Positions 37,531-58,082 of a stretch of DNA of 64,000 nucleotides are shown here, one piece after another; within the stretch, counting starts at the first letter, position 1; every line of letters starts with the position of its first letter. Position numbers and translations under genes: made by a program. The stretch lies in the NCBI RefSeq assembly GCF_964355755.1, contig NC_092670.1, positions 4,551,001 to 4,615,000 on the forward strand, read 5' to 3'. The notes beneath the pieces are model-generated. The model had not been told where the DNA came from. It saw only the letters and a list, made by a program, of their open reading frames with translations, and ran no database searches. This stretch comes from Antedon mediterranea. Lineage: Eukaryota > Echinodermata > Crinoidea > Comatulida > Antedonidae.

Positions 37531-38814
37531 TTTTTTTTAATAGAGAGATGTGATATTATCAACCTGCAGGTTGTAGGTGGCCTAGGCTATAGTAAATTTG
37601 GTATTGGATATCCCAGATGATGTACGCTCGAGATTTTTTGTATAACTTAATATTAGCTTAAATAGCGCCCTCTATATAATTTTTTATTATTATAGGACGC
37701 CCTCTATTGTTTACCCGAAATGTTGTTTTTTTCAACTTGGGACCTCTGTAAAATCACTGTGCTCCACTGGTGCTAAATTTGGTCCACTGAACCAGTTACC
37801 GTAGTACTATTTCTATTTCGGAAGTAAATAAAGGCATAAATGGCGCTCCGTAGAAGTAGAGAATGCTCGATCGTCGAAATGACGCTCTGAATATACCTCC
37901 GGTATGATATGACGAAAATCGTCGGGGTTAATCACCTGCATTTTATGCAAATTATGTGGTAGAAACAAGAGAACAACCGTTGAACACTGTACATTTAAAT
38001 GTATTATAATGCATGACAGTTTCTAACATACATAACCTACATTTGTATACATCTTGTATTTTTTTAAACATCGCGTTTTATTTGTTGTGTAGGCCTATTC
38101 GGTAGTTGGAAAATTCATAGTTTGGAACTAAAAAAACATAAATGTTTTAGCTTGTTAAAATAAGAAAACGCGATACTTAGGAAAAAACAAGAACACATCA
38201 TATTGCATTTTGCGATGAAGAGAGAAAGTTATATCATAATGAGTTTATAATGTAGCCTAATAAATGTGGTGATATTGGATAGGTAGGCCAATGTTTATAG
38301 GTTTGTATGGGTGTTAGAAGACCATGTCATGATGATGCCTGGCAGAGGTTATTAATCAGTTTAAATGATGAAGTGTCAACTCAAGAATGTAAACATTATA
38401 ATACAACCTAACAATCACTCTTTGAGAAAAAACCCTATTCTGATTCTGAGCTATTACGTTCCCCAAACCATGTTAAAATTTGATACAAATAATAATAAAG
38501 TGTAATCAAAGTACTGTATATAAGCTATTCAGTTTAATTTTGCACAGGCTTCAGTGTAGGTTTCAGTTCCAACTAACTTAACAGAAACACTTTCTTTATT
38601 AATATTTTTAGTAAAATTATCTTGGATATTATTAGGCCTATGTGTTTAAACTTTGAAAAATTAGGTAACGATAGTTTTTTTTTCTGAGTGAAAGTACATC
38701 AAAATGTAAATATTCAGATCCAAAAAATTATAGAGGCATATCTTTAAACCCTACCTTAGGAAAGGTATTCATTTATTATTAATAAACTGTTAAAATAATG
38801 CGAAGACGATTATA

Positions 38815-39100
38815 ATAATTATACACCAAGAACAAGCTAGATTTAGAAAAAGTATGGATGGAACCAAGGATAAGCACAGTCACATCTAAATATTTTTGGT
38901 ATATTTTGTTTACCTTTATTGATTTAAAATGTGCATTGAATATTCGATTCCAAATTAATACCAAACTTACAATATGGATCACAGATCTGAGGTTTTAAAG
39001 ACATCTCGAATATTGAACAGATTCATAATCAGTTGTGTAGATGTTCTAGGAATTGCGTTCGATCCAACAACTTAACTCTTTGCGAGATGAGACGGTTTCT
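38815..39100 (+). pseudogene. LINE reverse transcriptase fragment (motif A region) upstream of TRIM-like gene 1
   Basis: Plus-strand frames read 'EQARFRKSMDGTKD' and then, shifted, 'LFTFIDLKCALN', matching the RT pattern EQAGFRKG...FIDFKKAFD of non-LTR elements. Catalytic context is broken by stops. The homologous stretch upstream of the third TRIM-like gene (48590 onward) shows the same fragment. Confidence 0.6.
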
Positions 39101-40023
39101 TTATCTCATTTTATTTCTTTAACAACAATTACTTAATATTATTTGATATTGGTTATTATATTATTTTAGACCGAAAGTACAATAGTAGATCATTTCAAAG
39201 TCCTTTTCAAATAGTAAGAGATTAGATTAGAGATTTTAATTAAAACTCTAGTTAAAACAGGAAGAACAGAAATTGGTCGATAAATTAAGTTAATTATGTT
39301 TCACCTTTTTCTTTGAGGATTGAATGAGTGTTTTTGTGCGACTCTACTTTATCTTTTTCAATTGTAATAAAAACTGTACAATTTAATTTACATTCTAGTT
39401 TGTGGTTTATTTCACAATTGTATTGCACAACAACTAGCAAAAGTGAAGGCAAAAGTTGAAAGTTGAAATACAAAGCAGATAAAAAATACAATCAATAGAC
39501 CTTTGTACTTCCTAAAGTATTGAACAGATTCATAATCAGTTGTGTAGATGTTCTAGGAATTGCGTTCGATCCAACAACTTAACTCTTTGCGAGATGAGAC
39601 GGTTTCTTTATCTCATTTTATTTCTTTAACAACAATTACTTAATATTATTTGATATTGGTTATTATATTATTTTAGACCGAAAGTACAATAGTAGATCAT
39701 TTCAAAGTCCTTTTCAAATAGTAAGAGATTAGATTAGAGATTTTAATTAAAACTCTAGTTAAAACAGGAAGAACAGAAATTGGTCGATAAATTAAGTTAA
39801 TTATGTTTCACCTTTTTCTTTGAGGATTGAATGAGTGTTTTTGTGCGACTCTACTTTATCTTTTTCAATTGTAATAAAAACTGTACAATTTAATTTACAT
39901 TCTAGTTTGTGGTTTATTTCACAATTGTATTGCACAACAACTAGCAAAAGTGAAGGCAAAAGTTGAAAGTTGAAATACAAAGCAGATAAAAAATACAATC
40001 AATAGACCTTTGTACTTCCTAAA
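39011..40023. repeat. 507-bp tandem direct duplication
   Basis: 39011-39517 is repeated head to tail at 39518-40023; I saw no internal difference on reading, and the two copies give the same 65-aa minus-strand open frame. The second copy ends about 106 bases before the start codon of TRIM-like gene 1. A related single copy precedes TRIM-like gene 3. Confidence 0.92.
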
Positions 40024-40129
40024 TAATTATGATATTGTAAAAGTATTTCCTGTCTCTACAATAAATTTACACCGACGTCGCTTGGTAGTCAGCTTGGTAG
40101 TAAAACTATCCGAGAATTTTAAGCAAAAA

Positions 40130-41962
40130 ATGGCAAAACGAGAAGATAAAGACCCCGTAAGAAAGTTTGTGGAAAATCTTACAGAATGTTCATTGTGCTT
40201 TGAAGAAGAAATGGACCAGCCTAAATTTCTTACGTGTGGACATTCTTTTTGCTTAAAATGTCTACAGAAGCAATGTGATTCAATTGCAACGAATCAACGT
40301 CAACAGACTGTTTCTGATATTGTGTGTGCTTTGTGTAGAAAGTCAACCCAACTTCCTAGCACTGGTCTAAAAACACTCCCTTCGTCTTTTCTGGTCGAAG
40401 ACGCAAAGGGATGTTTGAAAACTGCTGATAGTTTAGGTCTAACTAAGGTTAGGCTGCCGATGTGTGAGAATTCTGATCATAACCAAGTTTTAAACATATG
40501 GTGTGAAACTTGCTTGGAACTTATTTGTATTCGTTGTCGTAATCAACAATTACATCGTCGACACAATGTGAGTCACATGACTTTTATTGAAGCATTCCAG
40601 AAATATCGTACAAAAAAATACAAATTTGAAAAGAAACTTTCAGCAATGGAAAAAGCTTTTACTGATTCGCGATTGGTACAATCTCAATGCCAAAAGGACT
40701 ATGAATCGTCGGTGAGTGAGATTAACAAATTAAAAAAGGAAAAAAAGAACATAACAAAACGTGCAAACAGGGAACAACAAATGCATAAAAAGATCATTGA
40801 AAAACATCATCAAGAAATTGAATCAATGGTTGATAAGATTAAGAGTATTGAAATACAAAATAGTAAAATTTCAGAATGTGCACAAACCGATTTGGAAAAA
40901 CATAAAATGATTCTAGAGTCATACCAAAAACAGATGGAGAAGATACAGTCTGAAAAACAAGAATTACAGCGTAGACTCGAAATTCAAAATGAAATGATTA
41001 AGAGGTCAGCTATTGCAGAGGGTGCTGGAAGAGAAGAGTTATGTAAATTCAAAACACGCAAAGAGACTTTCGTCCATGATACCGAGAATACAGAAAGAGA
41101 AATAAGAACAATTTGGAAAAGTAGGCCTACAAAGAAGGAAATTGAAGAACTGCTGGAGTCATATAAAAAAACGCTTAAAAATGTACAATCCGAAAATCAC
41201 GAGTTACAGCAAAAAATCAAAACACAAATTGGGTTATTGGTTGATGAGATTGATCGTACAACAGAAAGAAATGCAATTTCAGAACGTGCAGAAAGAGATA
41301 CGACAGGACATAAAATGACTCTGGAGGGATGCAAAAATAAGCTTCAAAATGTGCAATCTGAAAATATAAAGCTACAATTTCAATTAAAAATAGAAATCGA
41401 ATCAATGATTGACGAGATCGAAAGTACAGAGAAAGAAAGATGCAAAATTGCAGAACGCGCAGAGAAAGATATGGAAGAACTTAAACTGATTCTGGATCTA
41501 TATCAGAACGAGCTTGACAAAGTACGGTTTGAACTTTGTAAGATAAAAGATAGGTGCCATTCTTTAGTAACTGAGAATGACATCTTAAAAGTGAAAGTAA
41601 GTAAAACTGCTCAAAGTGCACAGAGAGATAGAACGATTGTAGAAACACAGAATACATTGGTAAAAAAATTAAAATCTGAAAAACATACATTTCAAACGAA
41701 TATGGAAAGCGTAATAATGCAAAGGAATGAACTGGTAGAACAAAATCAAGTGTTCACAATTGTTCTACATCAGCACCACATACACATTAGAGCATTGGAA
41801 ATAGAACAAAATAAAAGCAGACAACGTGAAAGGATACTGACAAGTAATCAAGGGACATTGTTAATCATCTTTATAATCTTCTGTCTTTACTGTTTATATG
41901 AATGGGCGCTATGGACATTGTTGGTTATGATTATTCTATTTTTTTGTTTATGGAGGGTGTAA
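40130..41962 (+). CDS. TRIM-like RING / B-box / long coiled-coil protein with C-terminal membrane segments (gene 1)
   Basis: Intronless, 610 aa from ATG 40130; an upstream in-frame extension exists, but this ATG is the one shared by all three paralogues. RING finger C20-C23-C36-H38-C41-C44-C66-C69 (C3HC4, E3 ubiquitin ligase type); B-box2 C112-H117-C125-C128-C133-C136-H142-H145; then a Lys/Glu-rich coiled coil (about 155-570) built from about four repeats of some 60 residues with the theme 'HKMILESYQ...IQSE..ELQ'; finally two hydrophobic stretches in the last 36 residues, predicting a tail anchor. No SPRY, NHL or COS-type end. TRIM13 and TRIM59 share the RING/B-box/coil/TM plan, so an ER-membrane ubiquitin ligase is plausible by analogy only. 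Confidence 0.88.
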   Translation: MAKREDKDPVRKFVENLTECSLCFEEEMDQPKFLTCGHSFCLKCLQKQCDSIATNQRQQTVSDIVCALCRKSTQLPSTGLKTLPSSFLVEDAKGCLKTADSLGLTKVRLPMCENSDHNQVLNIWCETCLELICIRCRNQQLHRRHNVSHMTFIEAFQKYRTKKYKFEKKLSAMEKAFTDSRLVQSQCQKDYESSVSEINKLKKEKKNITKRANREQQMHKKIIEKHHQEIESMVDKIKSIEIQNSKISECAQTDLEKHKMILESYQKQMEKIQSEKQELQRRLEIQNEMIKRSAIAEGAGREELCKFKTRKETFVHDTENTEREIRTIWKSRPTKKEIEELLESYKKTLKNVQSENHELQQKIKTQIGLLVDEIDRTTERNAISERAERDTTGHKMTLEGCKNKLQNVQSENIKLQFQLKIEIESMIDEIESTEKERCKIAERAEKDMEELKLILDLYQNELDKVRFELCKIKDRCHSLVTENDILKVKVSKTAQSAQRDRTIVETQNTLVKKLKSEKHTFQTNMESVIMQRNELVEQNQVFTIVLHQHHIHIRALEIEQNKSRQRERILTSNQGTLLIIFIIFCLYCLYEWALWTLLVMIILFFCLWRV

Positions 41963-42009
41963 TGCCTCTTGTCTTAGTTCCCGATTTTCAGTGCTGTATC
42001 CCTACATAC

Positions 42010-42624
42010 TATAATATTCGTTCAGTATCATAGCCTAGCTCAACCATATACCGTACTATAGTATTCGTCCAGCATCATAGCCTAGCTCAACCATATACAA
42101 TAGTCATAACGTTTAAGACCATGTAGTTTTTATAACAATAGCCCAACCATATACTATAGTCATAAAGTATATGACCGTGTAGTACGTTTATATAACAATA
42201 GCTCAACCATTATACTATAGTCATAAAGTATATGACCGTGTAGTACGTTTATATAACAGTAGCTCAACCAGATACTATATAGTCATAAAGTTTATGGCCG
42301 TGTAGTTTATATAACAGTAGCTCAACCATATACTATAGTCATAAAGTTTATGGCCGTGTAGTTTATATAACAATAGCTCAACCATATACTAAAGTCATAA
42401 TGTTTATAACCGTGTAGTTTATATAACAGTAGCTCAACCATATACTATAGTCATAAAGTTTATAACCGTGTAGTTTATATAACAATAGCTCAACCATATA
42501 CTATAGTCATAAAGTATATGACCGTGTAGTTTATATAACAGTAGCTCAACCATATACAATAGTCATAAAGTTTATAACCGTGTAGTTTATATATCAGTAG
42601 CTCAACCATATACTATAGTCATAA
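42010..42624. repeat. 56-bp satellite array, left part
   Basis: About 10-11 units of 56 bp with core 'gtagctcaaccatatactat' and 'gtcataaagtttat' run up to the foldback element. The same array resumes at 45497, so it was one array before the insertion. The first units (near 42010-42110) are more diverged. Confidence 0.9.
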
Positions 42625-45496
42625 TAGTAGAGCAGTTAACGCCATAAAAATAGCCAAATTGTGCACTTTATTACCAAAGAATGAAACTTTCCACAAAGTT
42701 TCTTTGATGTATATAGATTCAAAATATCGGGGGGTGCCAAGTGTCCAACGTCCGGTATGGCGGCCATCTTGATTTCAAAATGGCCACCATAAAAACAAAA
42801 AATGTTCATATCTTGGAAACATATAAACAGTAGATTCTGGTGTTAAATTGTTCACAAACCACATATTTCTATTTATTCTAATGAAAAGTTTCGTCCAAAA
42901 ATGACCGGAAATGGCGTTTCTTCCAGTTTGACTTTTGACCTCTTATCTGTATATCTCAGTAACTACTGATCATTTTCAATCGATTTTGGTGTCATTTTGT
43001 TCAGAATAGAGACATTTATATTTGTAGTAATGAAACATTTTCACATAAAATGACTGGAAATACAATTTATAACCTTTGACATATATAATTATGTGAACAT
43101 ACTGTATGTGGTTTAATTGGTATAAATGCACCTAATTTTTTTACCGAAATAAATGACACGGAATTATTATTCTGAATTTTTAACTTTTGATGTGATAGGA
43201 TAGGCATAAAGTATGACAGATCACTGAGTTCATCTATGCCGACTTGTTTGCTAAACTGTGATGTGTCAATTGTTTTTTCGTTGCATCTATAAAAATGTAC
43301 TTCATTTTTATGGTAATGGGCATTTGCTGTAAACCTTTCATCTGAATCCTTTTCCTCGATTTTCTCTTGTCATTGATTTTTTAACAAAATCCGAACTAAA
43401 TCAATTCGTAAAAGACATCTCAATATAATTATTCAAGTAATCCTCAAATTAGTGACATGGACCTACAATATACTGTTCTGTACAAGACCTGTTTAGGCAT
43501 CCACCTGTGGACTTTCACTTTAAAGGTCTTGGTTTCCTAATCATACAAGAAACAATGTCTAATTTAATCAATCAAAGTAGTGGGTCCAAGACCATCCACA
43601 GACAAAGAAGGGGATATAAGACCATCCACAGACAAAGAAGGAGGTATAAGACCATCCACCGACAAAGAAATAAGACCATCCACAGACAAATAAGGGGGTG
43701 TAAGACCATCCACAGACAAATTAAAGGAGTGCAAGACCATCCACACACAAAGAAAGGGGTGTAAGACCATCCACATACAAAAAAGGGGTGTAATACCATC
43801 AACGGACAAAGAAAAGGGTGTAATACCATCAACAGACAAAGAAGGGGGTATAAGATCATCCACAGGCACAGAAGGGGGGTATAAGACCGTCCACAGAAAA
43901 AGAAAGGGGTGTAAGACCATCCACAGACAAAGAAGGGGATGTAGAACCGTCCACAGACAAAGAAGGGGGTGTAAGACCATCCACCACTGACAAAGAAAGG
44001 GGTATAGGACCACTTACAGACAAAGAAGGGGTATAAGACCATCCACAGATAAAAAAAAAGGAGGTGTAGGACCATCCACAGACAAAGAAGGGGTGTCGGA
44101 CCATCCACAGACAAAGAAGGGGATGTAAGACCACCCACAGACAAAGAAGGGGTGTAAGACCATCCACATACAAAGAAGGGATTATAAGACCATCTACAGA
44201 CAAAGAAGTGTGCATAAGACTATTCACAGACAAAGAAGGGGGTGTAGGACCATCCACAGACAAAAAAAGGGGTATAAGACCATCCACAGACAAAGAAAGG
44301 GGTATAAGACCGTCCACAGACAAAGAAAGGGGTGTAAGACCATCCACAGACAAAGAAGTGTGCATAAGACTATTCACAGACAAAGAAGGGGGTGTAGGAC
44401 CATCCACAGAAAAAGAAGGGGGTGTTAGACCATCTACAGACAAAGAAATGGGTGTAAGACCATCCACACATAAAGAAAGGGGTGTAATCAACAGACACAG
44501 AAGTGGGTATAAGACCATCCACAGACAAAGAATGGGGTATAAGACCATCTACAGACAAAGAAGGAGGGTTAGGACCATATTAACCGAGGAAGCATACAAA
44601 ATAAGATGCAATCAAAATAGGCCTACCACTTGGAAAACAATAAATTGTAGAATAACTGTGGCTTAATTGTTGAAATAGAAAGGGTTCTTTGTAAGGTCAT
44701 TAATAATATATTGATATAAACACGATCATCATACTATTCATTTGACAATCAAATACAGTCTGTCTCGAAAAAAAAGCTCATACTATCACCTTTTCGAGGT
44801 TTTACGGTATTCAATAACATGTATGTTATTTCCTCTGTCAAACTATTAAAACTTTTAGCGAATCAGAAGGTGCCAACATCATTGAACTAATGGTACCACC
44901 AAGCACAATGTTTACCAATTTTATGTACTATAATTTAAGTCCATTAATCATTTAATATAATTACGCCTATCAGGTCAAAGTTCAAAATTAGGTGCACTTT
45001 AGACCAACAAAAACCACATACAGTATATCACATAATTAAAAATCAATAAATTAATGTCAAATGTCATAAATTGTATTTCCGGTCATTTTATGTGAAAATG
45101 TTTCATTACTAAAAATATAAATGTATTTATTCTGAACAAAATGACACCAAAATCGATTGAAAATGACCAGTAGTTACAGAGATATACAAATACGAGGTCA
45201 AAGGTTAAACTGTAAGAAACGTCATTTCCGATCATTTTTGGACGAAACTTTTCATTAGAGCAAATAGAAATGTATAGTTTGAGACCAGAATTAAGTCTCT
45301 AATGTGTATAGTTGCCAAGATATTAACATTTTTTGTTTTTATGGTGGCCATTTTGAAATCAAGATGGCCGCCATACCGGACGTTGGACACTTGGCACCCC
45401 CCGATATTTTGAATCTATATACATCAAAGAAACTTTGTGCCAAGTTTCATGCTTTGGTAATAAAATGCACAGCTCATGTCATTAACTGCTCTACTA
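42625..45496. mobile_element. 2.87-kb foldback transposon inserted in the satellite array
   Basis: Exact inverted ends TAGTAGAGCAGTTAA / TTAACTGCTCTACTA are flanked by TAA (42622-42624 and 45497-45499), and removal restores the satellite unit 'gtcaTAAagttt'. The arms are about 550-590 bp (42625-43215 and 44960-45496), roughly 85-90% alike on reading. No transposase is visible. The core holds a 30-bp minisatellite. The 3-bp TAA duplication would fit the Harbinger superfamily, but that is inference. Confidence 0.9.
43585..44578. repeat. Minisatellite, about 33 x 29-32 bp, core of the foldback element
   Basis: Variable units of the form 'agaccatccacagacaaaga' plus 'aggggtgta' run for about 1 kb. 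All long open frames here, on both strands, are translations of the repeat (for example PSTDKERGIR on plus, SLSVDGLTP on minus) and should not be called genes. Confidence 0.93.
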
Positions 45497-45716
45497 TAAA
45501 GTTTATGGCCGTGTAGTTTATATAACAGTAGCTCAACCTATACTATAGTCATAAAGTATATGACCGTGTAGTTTATATAACAGTAGCTCAACCATATACT
45601 ATAGTCATAAAGTTTATAACCGTGTAGTTTATATAACAATAGCTCAACCATATACTATAGTCATAAAGTTTGTGACCATGTAGTTTATATAACAGTAGCT
45701 CAACCATATACTATAA
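45497..45716. repeat. 56-bp satellite array, right part
   Basis: About four further units of the array interrupted at 42624, same 'gtagctcaaccatatactat' core and same phase once the foldback element and TAA duplication are removed. Confidence 0.88.
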
Positions 45717-45984
45717 TTATTGTATTGTCAAGGGCCCTAATGATCAGCTTTGCAGGAAACATGTTTATAATAAAAGCTGTGGTGAAAACAAATATTCCAT
45801 CAAGTCGTCCTTTTGGTTATTCTATTTAAAATTTGCTATTTAACGTCGATATCTGGTTGATGAGTAAAGTTGTTATGATGCCATCTACGAATTAACCCTA
45901 AAGACGACGATGTCATTTGAATTTGGAACTTATTTGTATTCGTTGTCGTACTCATGTATATGCATGATAATAATCATAACCAAA

Positions 45985-46690
45985 TTCTTATTCTTATTCT
46001 TTTATTGCCAAATATAAAATACATGAAGAACACGACATACAAAAAAACAATAGAACCAACTGAGTGAGCTGGCATGGGACACAAAAGCGATCCTAATCAC
46101 TGTGACTTAAAGCCTGAGTTCCCCACTCACCCAGTTTCACAAGCAATGAATATACCATCTTAAAATATAATATACCAAAATTCCAAAGCTAAGTTTAAAT
46201 CATATAAAGAAAATATATATATATATAAAAAGTATATTAAATTACATACATAGGCCTAATCATTATCGGAGAACAAATTTATTTTAAGTTTAGCAAGGAA
46301 TGTAGGGAAATAATCCAATAGCAGGGAATCTTTCACTTCATCATGAATGTCTTCCCACAGTTGCGGGAAGACATGGATAACTGAGCGATGCAAACAGTTA
46401 GTCCGTGCATACAAATGCTTGACGTCGAGTATTGACGCATACATTTTCGCGGATACTTTTTACAATCAATAGAAGTGTTTTACATACAAATGATGTTAAA
46501 AGATAGCTTCTTCGGCTCGATAGACGGGGCCAATTGAGTTGTTTTAATCTAATATCATACTCCATATCTGTTTCAATGCTAGCCGTGTGGCTCTACGTTG
46601 AACAGATTCGATCTTATCAATCAATTTTACAGTCTGGGGAATTGCCATGCGGGAATCGCATATTCGAGTATGGGAATGATAAGAGCTCGG
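45985..46690 (-). pseudogene. LINE reverse transcriptase C-terminal remnant upstream of TRIM-like gene 2
   Basis: On the minus strand, from right to left, the broken frame reads 'RALIIPILEYAIPAWQ', 'KLIDKIESVQRRATRLALKQ' and the tail frame 46444-46256 ('LYARTNCLHRSVIHVFPQLW ... FLAKLKINLFSDND'), the standard C-terminal layout of CR1-like RTs. Stops interrupt it. The 3' end (45985-46020 on plus) is AT-rich with repeated 'attctt'. Transcription would point away from the TRIM-like gene. Confidence 0.65.
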
Positions 46691-46865
46691 TATAATGCAA
46701 ATACAGCTGCTGACAAATTACAAAGCAAGCAGACAAATTAAACAAAAAAAAATCAATAGACCTATAATACTTCTGGAAATATTAGTAAGCTATAAACCTA
46801 TTTCTAGATTTACACGTCGTCGACGGCGCTTGGTAGTAAAACTATCCGAGAATTTAAAGCAGAAA

Positions 46866-47927
46866 ATGGCAAAGCGAGAAGATAAAGATCCCATAAGAAC
46901 GTTTGTGGAAAATCTTACGGAATGTTCATTGTGCTTTGAAGAAATGGACCAGCCTAAATTTCTTACGTGTGGACATTCTTTTTGCCTAAACTGTCTACAG
47001 AAGCAATGTGATTCAATTGCAACAAATCAACGTCATCGGACTGTTTCTAATATTGTGTGTGCTTTGTGTAGAAAGTCAACCCAACTTCCTAGCACTGGTC
47101 TAAAAACACTCCCTTCGTCTTTTCTGGTCGAAGACGCAAAGGGATGTTTGAAAACTGCTGATAGCTTGGGTCTAACTAAGGTTAGGCTGCCGATGTGTGA
47201 GAATTCTGATCATAACCAAGTTTTAAACATATGGTGTGAAACTTGCTTGGAACTTATTTGTATTCGTTGTCATAACCAACAATTACATCGTCGACACAAT
47301 GTGAGTCATGTGACTTTTATTGAAGCATTCCATAAATATCGTACAAAAAAATACAAATTTGAAAATAAACATTCAGAAATGGAAAAAGCTTTTACTGATT
47401 TGCGATTGGTACAGTCTCAATGCCAAAAGGACTATGAATCATCTGTGAGTGAGATTGACAAACTAAAAAAGGAAAAAAAAGACATAACAAAACGTGCAAA
47501 CAGGGAACAAAAAATCCATAAAAACATCATTGAAAAACATCGAAAAGAAATTGAATCAATGGTTGAAAAGATTAAGGATATTGAAATACAAAAGAGTACA
47601 ATTGCAGAATGTGCACAAAATGATATGGAAAAACACAAAATGATTTTAGAGTCATACCAAAAAGATATGGAGAAGATACAGTCTGAAAAACAAGAAATAC
47701 AAAAAGAGTCAAATGTATTTCATGATTTCATTACATTCATCTATATTGTCCTATATCTTTACTATTTATATCAATGGCCGTTATACACTATTCTATTAAA
47801 TATTATTACCAGCTGTACATACATAGGTAATAGCGCCAGGATTTCTCCTTCGGGGAGGAGACGAGAGCAATATGTCCCGAGGTGGAGTCCATACGTGCCA
47901 CCCCAAAAAAAGAAGAAAAAGAAGTAA
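46866..47927 (+). CDS. TRIM-like RING / B-box / coiled-coil protein with membrane tail (gene 2)
   Basis: Intronless, 353 aa from ATG 46866, nearly the same as gene 1 over the RING and B-box (one residue shorter: FEEMDQ instead of FEEEMDQ). All eight RING ligands and all B-box2 ligands are kept. The coiled coil is much shorter, with only about one 60-residue repeat ('HKMILESYQKDMEKIQSEKQE'), then a hydrophobic tail segment (about 290-320), then a polar cytosolic end 'SGRRREQYVPRWSPYVPPQ' and a short Lys run. The end sequence differs from gene 1 but matches gene 3. A decayed minus-strand LINE ends about 175 bases upstream. Function inferred as in gene 1: membrane-anchored ubiquitin ligase. Confidence 0.87.
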   Translation: MAKREDKDPIRTFVENLTECSLCFEEMDQPKFLTCGHSFCLNCLQKQCDSIATNQRHRTVSNIVCALCRKSTQLPSTGLKTLPSSFLVEDAKGCLKTADSLGLTKVRLPMCENSDHNQVLNIWCETCLELICIRCHNQQLHRRHNVSHVTFIEAFHKYRTKKYKFENKHSEMEKAFTDLRLVQSQCQKDYESSVSEIDKLKKEKKDITKRANREQKIHKNIIEKHRKEIESMVEKIKDIEIQKSTIAECAQNDMEKHKMILESYQKDMEKIQSEKQEIQKESNVFHDFITFIYIVLYLYYLYQWPLYTILLNIITSCTYIGNSARISPSGRRREQYVPRWSPYVPPQKKKKKK

Positions 47928-48560
47928 AACAACCTGTATGCTGCAGCATCAATAGCCCGATAAGCCAACAGTAGGCCTGCACTATTTACGTTCATGGTAC
48001 AGTACTAAAATACTATATATGCTTGTAATCTCAACATTTTTAATCGACAAACGTGGCAAAGTATTCCAACGAAGAAAGTGATTCAATGGTCAAAATTATT
48101 TTTATTTACATGACTATAAAGATTCATATCAAACGAAATCAATTCAAAGCTACGGTAAATGTTACAGGCCTTAAACATGCCATGGACATGCGCACATGAA
48201 TGAATCCCTGTTCCAGAGATGTAGGCCTAGAAAAATTATTTCGACTACACCAAGTCTTTCTTTTCTACTTTACGATTTGTGAAATTTTAAGCAAAGTAGC
48301 ATTTGAAACAGATATAAATCCAAAAGCAAACTACTGAAAAAATGGCAATGATTTATTTATTCTTACAACCAACAGTGAAAGGCACCAATTACATGTTGTT
48401 GTTGTTGCGGGTAGCAGTGGCTGGATCTCAATGGATAAAGAAAATAAAATAGAGCAAAAAGCTAAATCAAAACGATAATTAAGTAAAACAGCCAGAAAAA
48501 TTAGCAGAGCTTTCGGGTAACACTAGCCCTTCATCAGTGCAAATGAGAGTACTTGGACAT
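47928..48560. repeat. 3' flank of gene 2, duplicated downstream of gene 3
   Basis: Sequence after the stop (gtaaaacaacc, catcaatagcc, ggtacagtact, gattcatat, cctgttccagagatgtaggc ...) runs parallel to 51302-51935 for about 630 bp with scattered differences. This shows that genes 2 and 3 arose by duplication of a unit including the 3' flank. The flank ends in the hammerhead-like core at 48502-48537. Confidence 0.85.
48502..48537 (-). ncRNA. Hammerhead-ribozyme-like core (copy 1)
   Basis: On the minus strand: CTGATGA, 16 bases with GGG...CCC pairing, GAAA, then GC-TCT-GC, then TA. The GC-TCT-GC closes a 2-bp stem plus the A-U pair expected for the very short stem III of hammerheads found in Penelope-like elements, and the following A fits the cleavage-site position. 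Against it: an extra A after CTGATGA and no clear stem I. It is best read as a retroelement-derived, possibly inactive motif. Confidence 0.35.
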
Positions 48561-48589
48561 ATTAATTATATAAGAATAATTATAAACCA

Positions 48590-49735
48590 AGAACAATCAT
48601 GATTTAGGAAAAGTATGGAACCATGGATAATCACATTTGAATATTTATGGGAGAGTTTTTGTTACCTTTATTGATTTAAAATGTGCATTGAATATTCGAT
48701 TCCAAATTAATACCAAACTTACAATATGGATCAGAGATCTGAGGTTTTAAAGAAATCTGGAATATTGAACAGATTCATAACCAGTTGTGTCGAGATATAT
48801 GTTCTAGGAATTGCGCCAACATCTTAACCCTTTGGACGATTTCTTTATCTTATCTTATTTCTTTAACAACAATTACTTAATATTATTTGATATTGGTTAT
48901 TATATTATTTAGACCGACATACAATAGTACATTTATTTCAAAGTCTTTTCAAATAGTAAGAGATTAATCTTTTTTCTTTAAAACTCTATTTAAAACATGG
49001 AGAACAGAAATTGGTCGATAAATTAAGTAATTATGTTTTCCCTCTCTTCAAATGCATGTATGCATTTGCAACTATTGCAACTATTCATTTAATATTAAAA
49101 GAAAAGTCCTCGATGCTGCTTTATTGTCCAGTATATTATATAGTTGTGAATCATGGATGTCAAATTCATTTAAATCTATTCAGGTATTATATATGTCAGC
49201 GATAAAAGCACTCTTAAGAGTTAGATCATCCACAGCTAATGATATTTGTCTGATCGAACTGGGTTACCCGTCAATTGACGCCATGGTAAAGCAGGTTCAA
49301 TATAAGTTTTTTAATAAAACATTAAATGAAAGGGAGAATATGAATGACGACCCGTTTATGATGGCATGGTCAATATGTCGACTTGCTCAAACTCCATTTT
49401 ATCGTTGTTTGTAGTATTTTAGAGATTCTTGATCACCGTAATAATGATATAACTAGATTTCGTAACCGTGTGTTAGAATCCACGCGTACTAAAATTTGTA
49501 CATATTGTCTCACTTTGAATCCTTCTCTCGATATTCATCCGATGTATTTTGATCATAATGTACCTGAGCATGAAAGGTTAGCTTTCTCACGTTTACGACT
49601 TATATCGTTATAACCTTGGAATAGAAACCGGGCGGTGGTCTTGCACTCCACCCGATGAACGTCTTTGTAAATGCGGCAAAGTGCAGACCGAGCTTCACGC
49701 ATTATGTGGACACTGTTATCCTCAGTTGTCAATAA
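48590..49735 (+). pseudogene. LINE remnant upstream of TRIM-like gene 3
   Basis: 48590-49030 is homologous to 38815-39300 (RT motif A region). It is followed, uniquely here, by about 700 bp encoding the RT C-terminus: 'KRKVLDAALLSSILYSCESW', 'LYMSAIKALLRVRSS', then after frame changes 'RFRNRVLESTRTKICTYC', 'HERLAFSRLRL', 'ETGRWSCTPPDERLCKCGKVQTELHALCGHC', the usual end of one non-LTR clade. The flank of gene 1 seems to lack this 700-bp part by deletion. Frameshifts make the element dead. Confidence 0.72.
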
Positions 49736-49753
49736 AAGATAATAATAATATGT

Positions 49754-50064
49754 GTATTTCTTTGAGGATCGAATTAGTGTTTTTATGCGACTCTACTGTA
49801 TCTTTTTCAATTGTTAAAAGAACTGTACAATTTAATTTACATTCTAGTTTGTGGTTTATTTCACAATTGTATTGCACAACAACTAGCAAAAGTGAAGGCA
49901 AAAGTTGAAAGTTGAAATACAAAGCAGATAAAAAATACAATCAATAGACCTTTGTACTTCATTAAATTATGATTTGTAAAAGTATTTCCTGTCCCTCGAT
50001 AAATTTACACCGACGTCGCTTGGTAACAAGATTGGTAGTGAAATATTCGAGAAATTAGCAGAAA
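49754..50064 (+). repeat. 5' flank of TRIM-like gene 3, homologous to the flank of gene 1
   Basis: This segment parallels 39815-40129 base for base with few changes (tttgaggat, gtttgtggtttatttcac, gcacaacaactagcaaaagtg, agacctttgtacttc), ending at the start codon. It therefore probably contains the promoter carried along with the gene copies, or the 3' UTR of the adjoining LINE. Confidence 0.8.
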
Positions 50065-51301
50065 ATGGCAAAACGAGAAGATAAAGACCCCGTAAGAACG
50101 TTTGTGGAAAATCTTACGGAATGTTCATTGTGCTTTGAAGAAATGGACCAGCCTAAATTTCTTACGTGTGGACATTCTTTTTGCCTAAACAGAAGCAATG
50201 TGATTCAATTGCAACAAATCAACGTCATCGGACTGTTTCTAATATTGTGTGTGCTTTGTGTAGAAAGTCAACCCAACTTCCTAGCACTGGCCTAAAAACA
50301 CTCCCTTCGTCCTTTCTGGTAGAAGACGCAAAAGGATGTTTGAAAACTGCTGATAATTTGGGTCTAACTAAGGTATTAGGCTGCCAATGTGTGAGAATTC
50401 TGATCATAACCAAGTTTTAAACATATGGTGTGAAACTTGCTTGGAACTTATTTGCATTCGTTGTCGTAAAAAACGATTACATCGTCGACACAATGTGAGT
50501 AACGTGACTTTTACTGAAGCATTCCAGAAATATCGTACAAAAAAATACAAATTTGAAAATAAACTTTCAGAAATGGAAAAAGCTTATACTGATTTGCGAT
50601 TGGTACAATCTCAATGCCAAAAGGACTACGAATCATCGGTGAGTGAGATTGAGAAATTAAAAAAGGAAAAAAAGAATATAACAAAACGTGCAAACAGGGA
50701 ACAACAAATACATAAAAACATAATTGTAAAACATCATCAAGAAATTAAATCAATGGTTGATAAGATCAAGAGTGTTGAAATACAAAATAGTAAAGCAGAA
50801 TGTGCGCAACCCGATTTGGAGAAACATAAAATGATTCTAGAGTCATATCAAAAACAGATGGAGAAAATACAGTCTGAAAAACAAGAATTACAACATAGAC
50901 TCGAAATTCAAAATGAAATGATTAAGAGCGGGCTAGCTATTGCAGAGGGTGCTGGAAGAGAACATAAATTCAAAACACACACCGAGTCATTCGTTGATGA
51001 GGAAATAAGAAAAATTGGAAGGGACAGTGACGTCTTGAATCTGGAGACAGAGCCAAATGTATTTGATCTTTTCATGTCAATCATCTTTTTTATCCTATTT
51101 CTTTACTGTTTATATCAATGGCCGTTATACACAGTTATTATACTTATTGTTGCCTGCTGTTGTTGTATTCCCATCATTCACGCAAACAACATATCCAATG
51201 GCGCCATGATTTCTCCATCTGGAAGGAGGAGAGAGCAATATGTCCCGACGTTGGGTTCATACGTGCTACTCCACAAAAAAAAAAAGAAAAAAAAGAAGTA
51301 A
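50065..51301 (+). pseudogene. TRIM-like gene 3, RING disrupted by two frameshifts
   Basis: The start and first half of the RING (C20, C23, C-x-H) match gene 2, but a 7-bp deletion at 50190/50191 removes the codons around the second Cys pair and shifts the frame; a 2-bp insertion near 50374 shifts it again. The net change is -5, so the frames never rejoin. From an internal ATG at 50387 an intact 304-aa frame keeps the whole B-box, a coiled coil with about two of the 60-residue repeats, a hydrophobic tail and 'SGRRREQYVP' plus poly-Lys. It is either a pseudogene or a RING-less B-box protein made from the internal start; I favour pseudogene. Confidence 0.85.
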
Positions 51302-51935
51302 AACAACCTTTACGTTGCATCAATAGCCGGATATTCCAACAGTAGGCTTGCACTATTTACGGTCATGGTACAGTACTCTAATACTAGATATGTTTGTAAT
51401 CTCAACATTTTTTACTCGACATAAACGTGGCAAAGTATTCCAAAGAAGAAAGCGCTGCAACGGTCAAATTTATTTTATTTACATGACTATAAAGATTCAT
51501 ATTAAACGAAATCAATTCAAACTACGGTAAATGTGACAGGCCTTAAACATGGACATGCGCACATGAATGAATTCCTGTTCCAGAGATGTAGGCCTAAAAT
51601 AATTATTTCGACTACACCAACTTAAGTCTTTCTTTTCTACTTTACGATTAGTGAAATTTTAAGCCTAATAGCATTTGAAACAGATATAAATCCAAAAGAA
51701 AACTACTGAAAAATGCCAATGTTTTATTTAATCTTACAACAGACAGTGCAAGGCACCAATTACATGATGTTGTTGTTAAGGGTAGCAGTGGCTGGCTCTC
51801 AATAGATTTATACCAAATAAAATAAGCAAAAAGCTAAATCAAAATGATAAAGTAAAACAGCCAGAAAAATTAGCAGAGCTTTCGGCCAACACTAGCCCTT
51901 CATCAGTGCAAGTGAGAGTACTTGGATATATTATA
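51302..51935. repeat. 3' flank of gene 3, duplicate of the gene 2 flank
   Basis: Parallel to 47928-48560, ending with the second hammerhead-like core at 51871-51906 and followed by unrelated AT-rich sequence. Confidence 0.85.
51871..51906 (-). ncRNA. Hammerhead-ribozyme-like core (copy 2)
   Basis: Same layout as 48502-48537, with the spacer changed at its 3' side (GGCC instead of ACCC before GAAA). CTGATGA, GAAA and the GC-TCT-GC-TA part are unchanged. The change weakens the GGG/CCC pairing but allows GGC/GCC instead. Confidence 0.35.
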
Positions 51936-52241
51936 TATATAAAACAAGTAATAATTAAAAAAAGAACTTTAAATATAAATTATGCTTTAGTTAAAGACAC
52001 ACTAGGAATCAGATGAGAAAGTCCTAGCTGGCACAACAACCTGCTGCATTTGCAAGTATTTTTAAAAGGGTTTTTGTTTTTTTTATTAAGATAAAATAAA
52101 TTGAATTAAAAAAGTTCAGAATGTTGATTGATGTTTAGCTTTACATCCAACAAAACTCATAAACTACAGTTTAAGTTAAAACATTACAATATTACAAAAA
52201 TGAAACCCAATTTTTGTCCATGAATCTCTAAAACTCCATTA

Positions 52242-55300: not shown

Positions 55301-58082
55301 ATTGTACTGAAGTATTATACTGAATAAACAATATATGTGTTACGACAGTTAAGCGAGTAAGAGTCTTTCATTAGTACCTCAACAACGCAACACTATATTA
55401 CAATATCTTTATCACAGTAGTTCTTATAGAAGTTGTGTATTGCATGGATTCGCTTACATGTTTGTTTTTAATTTTTCAATCTCAATATTTATGTTACCTG
55501 ATAAAAAGCAACCTATCCTTCTGTTGGCCATGAATCTTTTTCTTACAGCTTCAGTCAACAAGAGACGAATGTTAGCAAGATGCTCATCCACTGAAAGTAG
55601 ATTGAAACAAGTAGTTAGTTGTAATGTTACTGTAATAATTAAAAAGATGTAGTTGTGCTGAGCTAAAGGGCTGTGTATAGCCTACAGACATAATAATAAT
55701 AATGCACAACATTACTAAATTAAATGCAATGTTGTATACAACTTAATTACTAAAACTAATAGGGCTTTGCCTATAAAACCCCTTGGAGCTGGAATCTGCC
55801 CCTGATATCTTGAAGATTTGTGTAAAATTTCATTAATGGATTATTACATTGTTATCTCAAAGAACGAATCCATCAACCTACAGTACCTTCTGGTTTGGGT
55901 GTTTGGGTCTCCAACGCCCATTTTGGTGTCTCATCATATAAATGAAATTTGTGTCGACTAACAAACATAGCTTTCCCATTCATTAACAAGTCATACTCTT
56001 CATAGTGAGCAGGAGGAAACGGCTCAATGTTTGCACAGTCGTGTGTGTTGCTAAGACCCACAATGCCTTTGGCTTCTGAGCAGATTGCAAGTATGCCATC
56101 ATCTTCCAAGTACAGACGAAACATTGGACGAATACCAATGGTATCACGACCGATAAATACCTGAAATGAAACAGCAAATATGTTCATTATTTTTATTTTT
56201 ATTTTCTATTGTGCTGTAAAAGTCATTAAGTAGTACTGTAAATATGACAGTTAAATAATTACTCTAATAACTACATACTAGTACTTGTTTTTGGACAGTC
56301 ATTTGCATGGGTCAAGACATAATAATTCTAATATGGAATACAAATTAAATTGAAAACTAACTTAAAAGGTAACTCAACAGTACAGCAGGCCTACTACAGT
56401 AGCTGTACTTTGGGTGCCTACTGTTGTAGCAGTAAGTGTCTACACAGCAGGCCTACTAGCTGTACTTTGGGTGCCTACTGTTGTAGCAGTAAGTGTCTAC
56501 ACAGTAGGCCTACTAGCTGTACTTTGGGTGCCTACTGTTGTAGCAGTAAGTGTCTACACAGTAGGCCTACTAGCTGTACTTTGGGTGCCTACTGTTGTAG
56601 CAGTAAGTGTGTAGGCCTACTAGCTGTACTTTGGGTGCCTACTGTTGTAGCAGTAAGTGTCTACAGTAGGCCTACTAACTGTACTTTGGGTGCCTACTGT
56701 TGTAGCAGTAAGTGTCTACAGAGTAGGCCTACTAGCTGTACTTTGGGTGCCTACTGTTGTAGCAGTAAGTGTGTAGGCCTACTAGCTGTACTTTGGGTGC
56801 CTACTGTTGTAGCAGTAAGTGTCTACAGAGTAGGCCTACTAACTGTACTTTGGGTGCCTACTGTTGTAGCAGTAAGTGTCTACAGTAGGCCTACTAACTG
56901 TACTCTGAGTGTCTACTGTTGTAGCAGTAAGTGTCTACACAGTAGGCCTACTAGCTGTACTTTGGGTGCCTACTGTTGTAGCAGTAAGTGTCTACACAGT
57001 AGGCCTACTAGCTGTACTTTGGGTGCCTACTGTTGTAGCAGTAAGTGTCTACAGTAGGCCTACTAACTGTACTCTGAGTGTCTACTGTTGTAGCAGTAAG
57101 TGTCTACAGTAGGCCTACTAGCTGTACTTTGGGTGCCTACTGTTGTAGCAGTAAGTGTCTACAGTAGGCCTACTAGCTGTACTTTGGGTGCCTACTGTTG
57201 TAGCAGTAAGTGTCTACACAGTAGGCCTACTAGCTGTACTTTGGGTGCCTACTGTTGTAGCAGTAAGTGTCTACAGTAGGCCTACTAGCTGTACTTTGGG
57301 TGCCTACTGTTGTAGCAGTAAGTGTCTACAGTAGGCCTACTAGCTGTACTTTGGGTGCCTACTGTTGTAGCAGTAAGTGTCTACAGTAGGCCTACTAACT
57401 GTACTCTGAGTGTCTACTGTTGTAACAGTAGGTGGCTTATACAGTACCTTCTTGGTTTGTGTATCTAGCAGGCAGAATGCAAAGACACCATCCAGCATCT
57501 TAGCCATGAAGTCAATGCCACCATGTGCATACAAGTGGATGAGAACTTCACCATCACAGTTACTGGTAAAATCAAACTTGTATTGTTCACGTAACTAGAA
57601 CAAAAAAAATTGCAATGTTTGTAAAGATCTTGATGTTTTAATCTACAGTATGTAGCCAGCTAGGTCTAACCGATGTTACTCAATTACATTTAGTATATAT
57701 CTATAATTATTGTATCATCTAGTTATAAAAAAAAACAGCATGCCTAGGTGCAGATATGTTTCAATATTAAAATGCTATTACAGTATTTAAATGAAACTTC
57801 ATTTTAAACATATGCTGACTATATTTTGCTCACCTTTTTGAAGTTGTATATTTCTCCATTGTACATCATCCATATGTGAGGATACGCCTTCAATCTCATT
57901 GGCTGCATACCAAAAACATCATCCACGATAGCCAATCGGTGGAACCCAAACAAGCAGTTGGCTAGATGATTGACATTTTCTAGACAGAAGGCGTCCGGGC
58001 CCCGATGCGCGATCTTACAGGCACTCTCGCAGTACTTGTGTACATCTTCGTTGCTACCGAATATTGCCCAAATTCCACACAT
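52325..58082 (-). CDS. ASNS: Asparagine synthetase (glutamine-hydrolysing)
   Basis: Eight coding exons (minus, 5' to 3'): 58082-57834, 57594-57448, 56160-55887, 55590-55498, 54731-54477, 54112-53905, 53245-53008, 52555-52325; 1695 nt, 564 aa plus stop, near the human length, phases closing. It makes asparagine from aspartate, glutamine and ATP in the cytosol. Seen: N-terminal nucleophile Cys in '[10 protein letters not shown]', 'HRGPDA' and 'YNGEIYN' (glutaminase domain), '[11 protein letters not shown]', 'SEAKGIVGL', the ATP-pyrophosphatase loop SGGLDSS (split by an intron after its first Gly codon base), '[15 protein letters not shown]', '[12 protein letters not shown]', '[12 protein letters not shown]' and 'YYYRQIFE'. 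The ATG follows an acceptor at 58109, so a non-coding first exon lies further right. Intron 2 is largely a minisatellite. Confidence 0.97.
54800..55375 (+). repeat. Retroelement 3' fragment in ASNS intron
   Basis: A short plus frame reads '[28 protein letters not shown]' piecewise (about 54903-54986), resembling the C-terminal tail of LINE RTs (…SLPxxVVxAxSVxxFKxRLD). Downstream come three 33-bp tandem units (55132-55230, core cagccacttcttcagaagaa), then 'ctgaataaacaat'. No terminal duplication was identified. An LTR fragment is an alternative reading. Confidence 0.4.
56384..57432. repeat. Minisatellite in ASNS intron 2, about 19 units of 46-59 bp
   Basis: Units contain 'gtactttgggtgcctactgt', 'tgtagcagtaagtgtctaca' and 'gtaggcctacta'. 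The array ends about 16 bases from the donor of the exon 57594-57448. The 235-aa Cys-rich plus frame at 56350-57057 is only the repeat translated. Length variants come from loss or gain of a 2-4 base 'ca' or a roughly 9-base piece between units. Confidence 0.95.

Follow-up and report, generated by a model that had tools for sequence, protein, structure and literature searches.

What do three closely spaced TRIM-like genes with coiled coils of very unequal length encode, and has the length of the coil been expanded and contracted under selection, as a sequence-only reading of this DNA had proposed? The genes lie within a 64,000-nucleotide stretch (the window) of the crinoid Antedon mediterranea (positions 4,551,001 to 4,615,000 of contig NC_092670.1), on chromosome C1 of an animal assembly of 354 Mb with 11 large chromosomes. 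The explanation favoured here, which we hold to be probable, is that the locus carries tandem copies of a lineage-specific, intronless protein of the TRIM type (RING, B-box and coiled coil) with a C-terminal membrane anchor, in which the length of the coil varies by duplication and deletion of its repeats. The features are listed in Table 1.

Table 1. Genes, flanks and repeats of the locus (positions are those of the window).
Feature	Position	Strand	Description
5' flank of gene 1	38814..40129	+	Common to gene 3 (self-blastn, identity)
Gene 1	40130..41962	+	Intact single-exon ORF, 610 aa; RING (aa 20-69), B-box (112-145), coil (~150-570, about 5 modules), stalk, hydrophobic hairpin (572-610)
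Repeat block, genes 1-2 interval	42083..45715	.	56-nt arrays at both ends
Gene 2	46866..47927	+	Intact single-exon ORF, 353 aa, counted from MAKRED start; RING, B-box, short coil (about 2 modules), hydrophobic tail, basic extension ending KKKKKK
3' flank common to genes 2 and 3	47928..48594	+	90.6% identity
5' flank of gene 3	48575..50062	+	Homologous to that of gene 1
Gene 3	50063..51301	+	RING broken; rest open in frame
Internal ORF of gene 3	50387..51301		304 aa; B-box, short coil, hairpin, lysine tail

Anatomy and family of the copies

The proposal of a tandem, intronless family of tail-anchored TRIM-like genes was confirmed: two intact open reading frames (ORFs) and a third copy with a frameshifted RING were recovered, at the sizes first read (the third from its internal start), and the coding sequences are uninterrupted by introns. 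The MAKRED start of gene 2 is conserved across all paralogues. With the curated gathering scores of Pfam as cut-offs, the RING was called in genes 1 and 2 (PF13445, 25.7 and 30.6 bits, cut-off 25.2; PF00097 is also above its curated cut-off in gene 2) and the B-box in genes 1, 2 and 3 (PF00643, 25.7, 24.7 and 27.8 bits, cut-off 24.1). The order RING, B-box, coiled coil that defines a TRIM (RBCC) protein is present, and fails at the RING in gene 3, where the reading frame is shifted twice, by the loss of 7 nt within the RING (~50190) and by 2 nt inserted upstream of the B-box (~50375), so that no intact RING is left. The zinc-ligand positions of the RING (C3HC4 type) and of the B-box are kept across the aligned family, apart from a single substitution in the B-box of the C9 paralogue; under PF00643 the paralogues L004 and L008 score below the cut-off and L012 gives no match. 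By phmmer, the closest PDB sequences to the RING-B-box are those of TRIM2, TRIM3, TRIM32 and TRIM72, while the Pfam search of genes 1-3 returned no NHL match and no further domain above its cut-off. The intact RING suggests ubiquitin ligase activity for genes 1 and 2. The AlphaFold models of these two are poor (mean pLDDT 54), and this low confidence leaves the arrangement of the coil, which in TRIM proteins is typically an antiparallel dimer, and the hairpin without structural support.

A search of the animal's own genome located intact tail-bearing paralogues on chromosomes C7 (523, 311 and 290 aa), C9 (445 aa) and C4 (450 aa), together with a RING-coil-hairpin form without a B-box on C7 (L012), a dead tail-bearing paralogue (L063, C2:26722000-26725200) and related soluble forms within the C7 cluster. 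Intronless genes that are more distantly related lie on C7, C3 and C11; their C-terminal half, judged by eye from its repeat motifs, is like an NHL-type propeller. In a tree of the RING-B-box, tail-bearing and NHL-type genes split with 100/100 support; the split of tail-bearing from soluble genes is not resolved. No relative was found in a scan of viral contigs. Within the limits of this one genome, the family appears to be lineage-specific. Downstream of the dead paralogue, similar hydrophobic tail sequences recur in other frames and are followed by a short tandem array.

At the locus, the duplicated unit is about 3.4 kb (48575-51967). The 5' flanks of genes 1 and 3 are 91% identical in the 300 bp next to the gene, and that of gene 3 is interrupted (~49039-49756) by extra sequence that resembles a reverse-transcriptase fragment, without a Pfam match. 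In the repeat block, inverted arms (42660-43082 and 45054-45471) enclose a 30-nt satellite with about 34 units. The arm is itself interspersed at high copy number, with over 1200 candidates, and identity is 95-97% in the 40 copies that were scored. Upstream of gene 1 lies an exact 506-bp tandem duplication (39011-39516 and 39518-40023), which is either very recent or an assembly artefact. This duplication and the dense repeats could be taken as signs that the three copies are themselves artefacts of assembly (unmerged alleles or misjoined repeats), a very unlikely explanation given that the 5' halves differ by 4-11%, that coils, lesions and flanks are distinct, that a high-copy repeat separates genes 1 and 2, that all copies are on one contiguous contig and that the family is also found on three other chromosomes. 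Two further repeats were seen in the window: a dispersed repeat of ~150 bp in the 3' flank of gene 2 (48403-48556), with tens of copies genome-wide at 83-90% identity, and a 55-nt tandem array of about 19 copies at 56400-57434, containing AGTAGGCCTAC.

Age and turnover of the coil modules

In the coil of gene 1, hydrophobic residues recur with a period of 3.52 over 415 residues, a heptad signal. Compared with block-shuffled controls, the best lag self-similarity was 119 in gene 1 (shuffled maximum 61) and 78 in gene 2 (42). At lags of 32-193 residues gene 1, gene 2, L004, L006 and L008 exceeded such controls, and the short paralogues L005 and L007 did not. The coil module of the sequence-only reading is thus a real repeat, although its size is about 54-57 residues and not 60. 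With a 54-residue profile, and with partial units merged by eye, ~5 units were counted in gene 1, 6 in L004, 4-5 in L008, 3-4 in L006 and ~2 in each of genes 2 and 3. The counts of four, one and two first given for genes 1 to 3 are accordingly revised to about 5, 2 and 2, with a similar ranking if the first conserved coil unit is omitted. Over the family, the coil is from about 120 to 420 residues long.

Where dS could be measured between the modules of gene 1 it is 1.4-1.6, which makes these modules old. In L004 two modules are 88% identical in DNA (dS 0.11), and in L006 a stretch of 82 residues is repeated at 96% (dS 0.045). These ages place the recent gain of modules in L004 (C7) and L006 (C9), not in the window, and such near-identical intragenic duplications show that remodelling of the coil recurs. 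A pre-membrane stalk is common to gene 1, L004, L006 and L008, the last three being the only paralogues that the C-terminal half of gene 1 matches in a whole-genome search; genes 2 and 3 are without the stalk stretch present in gene 1. The simplest history would be a long ancestor and subsequent contraction in genes 2 and 3. The young expansion and contraction of the coil first proposed is therefore upheld in part: coil length is variable and there are recent gains elsewhere in the family, but the window points to contraction, and recent expansion there is unsupported, given the age of the gene 1 modules and the apparently contracted, derived state of genes 2 and 3.

Between genes 1 and 2, dN/dS is 0.23 in the RING-B-box and 0.50 in the coil, which is not a significant difference (p=0.18), and coil values of 0.27-0.50 are all below 1. 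The young modules have few changes (3 synonymous and 17 nonsynonymous in L004, 2 and 8 in L006), in line with near-neutral evolution. Considering these ratios, the near-neutral young modules and the lack of a significant difference between regions, the selection on the coil that had been suggested is not supported. It is consequently unlikely that coil length acts as a selected molecular ruler, with the number of modules setting how far the RING extends from the membrane in an arms-race-like manner, even though length differs about three- to fourfold over paralogues despite the conserved RING-B-box and L004 and L006 have duplicated modules recently and independently. According to the favoured explanation, the variation in length would result from duplication and deletion (slippage) in the repetitive coil DNA and would be largely tolerated rather than selected.

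Probable exchange between copies, and the membrane tail

Divergence among the copies is regional, DNA identity being 95.5-96.2% in the RING-B-box, 89-94% in the first part of the coil and 63-80% in the hairpin. The RING/B-box regions are nearly identical, as had been noted, but identity along the 5' halves is uneven and looks mosaic. The pair of copies that shares bases shifts by region (p=0.0004 in a region-by-pattern permutation test with boundaries picked by the analyst), whereas the same sites gave no significant mosaicism by a runs test (p=0.15). Exchange of segments between the copies is likely in view of this shift.

By hydropathy, a C-terminal hydrophobic segment is found in every intact family member and is absent from L010 and L015, the two soluble relatives that were compared. 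It is single and at the extreme C-terminus in L004, L005, L007 and L008. There are two segments in genes 1 and 3, as in L006, and a less clear number in gene 2 and L012, the segment of gene 2 having a borderline apparent dG of +2.3 on the scale applied. A protein with two membrane segments would have its N- and C-termini both on the cytosolic side. The 'two different membrane tails' first described proved to be one homologous hydrophobic region, beyond which genes 2 and 3 encode a further basic stretch with lysines at its end. No donor for the tail DNA of these two genes was found elsewhere in the assembly, except for the dispersed repeat. The terminal lysines bear what we take to be a resemblance to a dilysine ER-retrieval signal, and are encoded by a purine-rich tract, which may be fortuitous. 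Between genes 2 and 3, the core of this extension, ISPSGRRREQYVP, differs by 5 synonymous changes and by no nonsynonymous one, a small sign of constraint.

The same core could be seen as support for a gene 3 that is still alive, encoding a RING-less B-box-coil-membrane protein that serves as a dominant-negative partner. The 304 codons open from an internal ATG, the changes assigned to its branch (9 synonymous, 10 nonsynonymous) and tail indels that preserve the frame relative to gene 2 agree with this. However, so young an ORF can remain open by chance, a ribosome would reach the upstream ATG first, and the constraint perhaps acts on gene 2 only or predates the loss of the RING, which makes a living gene 3 quite doubtful.

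An excess of replacements is seen only in the hairpin of genes 2 and 3, with 20 nonsynonymous and 2 synonymous changes, and is a weak lead; dN is 0.28 against a divergence near 0.10 in the 3' flank (Fisher p=0.0004, one of several comparisons). The membrane hairpin, and not the coil, might then be what diversifies, directing the copies to different membranes or partners, and the family does have both single-segment and two-segment tails. Nevertheless, zero lies just inside the bootstrap interval of dN-dS (-0.013 to 0.367), more than one region and pair entered the analysis, gene 3 has a dead RING, hydrophobic residues swap easily and the comparison is confounded by partial mosaicism, so that diversification of the hairpin is improbable.

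Proposed mechanism and relation to known TRIM proteins

The sequences show the anatomy, family, polarity, module ages and regional divergence of the copies, and the ligase activity, topology, organelle and biological role are inferred. In the favoured explanation, the RING would transfer ubiquitin, the coil would dimerise the protein and space the RING off the membrane, and the hydrophobic hairpin would anchor it to an organelle, probably the ER, on the cytosolic side. The ~3.4-kb unit would have been duplicated in tandem, after which genes 2 and 3 would have shed most of their coil modules and the stalk, the copies would have traded segments and gene 3 would have lost its RING.

The likeness to the SPRY-less TRIM13 and TRIM59, drawn earlier in plan only, is supported by the C-terminal hydrophobic segment and the lack of a further Pfam domain above cut-off. 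These proteins share with the crinoid family a RING, a single B-box, a coil and a C-terminal hydrophobic anchor, with neither SPRY nor another domain, and are likened to it by plan, not by descent. TRIM13 and TRIM59 (class XI or subfamily H) are vertebrate-only in the list of PMC3503706 and have about 403-407 aa and one transmembrane segment (PMC4971459), and RFP2 (TRIM13) is an ER ligase in ERAD (PMC4021871). In contrast, the present family is multi-copy and intronless with a repeat coil of up to ~420 residues, and its hairpin has two segments in genes 1 and 3 (marginal in gene 2). The family may be a sign that the membrane-anchored TRIM plan arose twice independently. The arrangement is real and fairly new, and its component parts are already known. 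That this animal lineage has independently evolved class-XI-like membrane ligases, combining a variable, repeat-built coil as spacer with a diversifying hairpin to give graded reach and different addresses, is a scenario to which we attach a low probability.

The TRIM-NHL proteins TRIM2, TRIM3 and TRIM32 provide the best PDB matches to the RING-B-box, and intronless clusters of NHL-type TRIM genes occur in the same genome; genes 1-3, however, are without the NHL propeller and form a separate branch of the RING-B-box tree. The vertebrate group 2 TRIMs (SPRY type) are likewise young, clustered and dynamic in copy number, but these are not found in invertebrates and mostly have 6 or 7 coding exons (PMC2533329), unlike the intronless family described here, which is without SPRY. 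Human TRIM coils are reported to extend no further than 120 residues from the B-box (PMC2533329), and a length of about 18 nm is reported for the TRIM rod (PMC6599887). With its constant RING-B-box and its range of coil lengths, the family offers a natural experiment on the effect of coil length in a ligase.

Two other arrangements were observed on C7. Dynein-light-chain-like ORFs (25232655-25233296, 25240394-25240855 and 25244373-25245026; L031, L032) alternate there with TRIM-like genes, two of them matching PF01221 when scanned (E about 2e-13) and the third being recognised by eye. At 25516000-25608000, two other TRIM-like ORFs (403 and 303 aa) form a divergent pair that is present in five near-identical copies with ~15-kb spacing.
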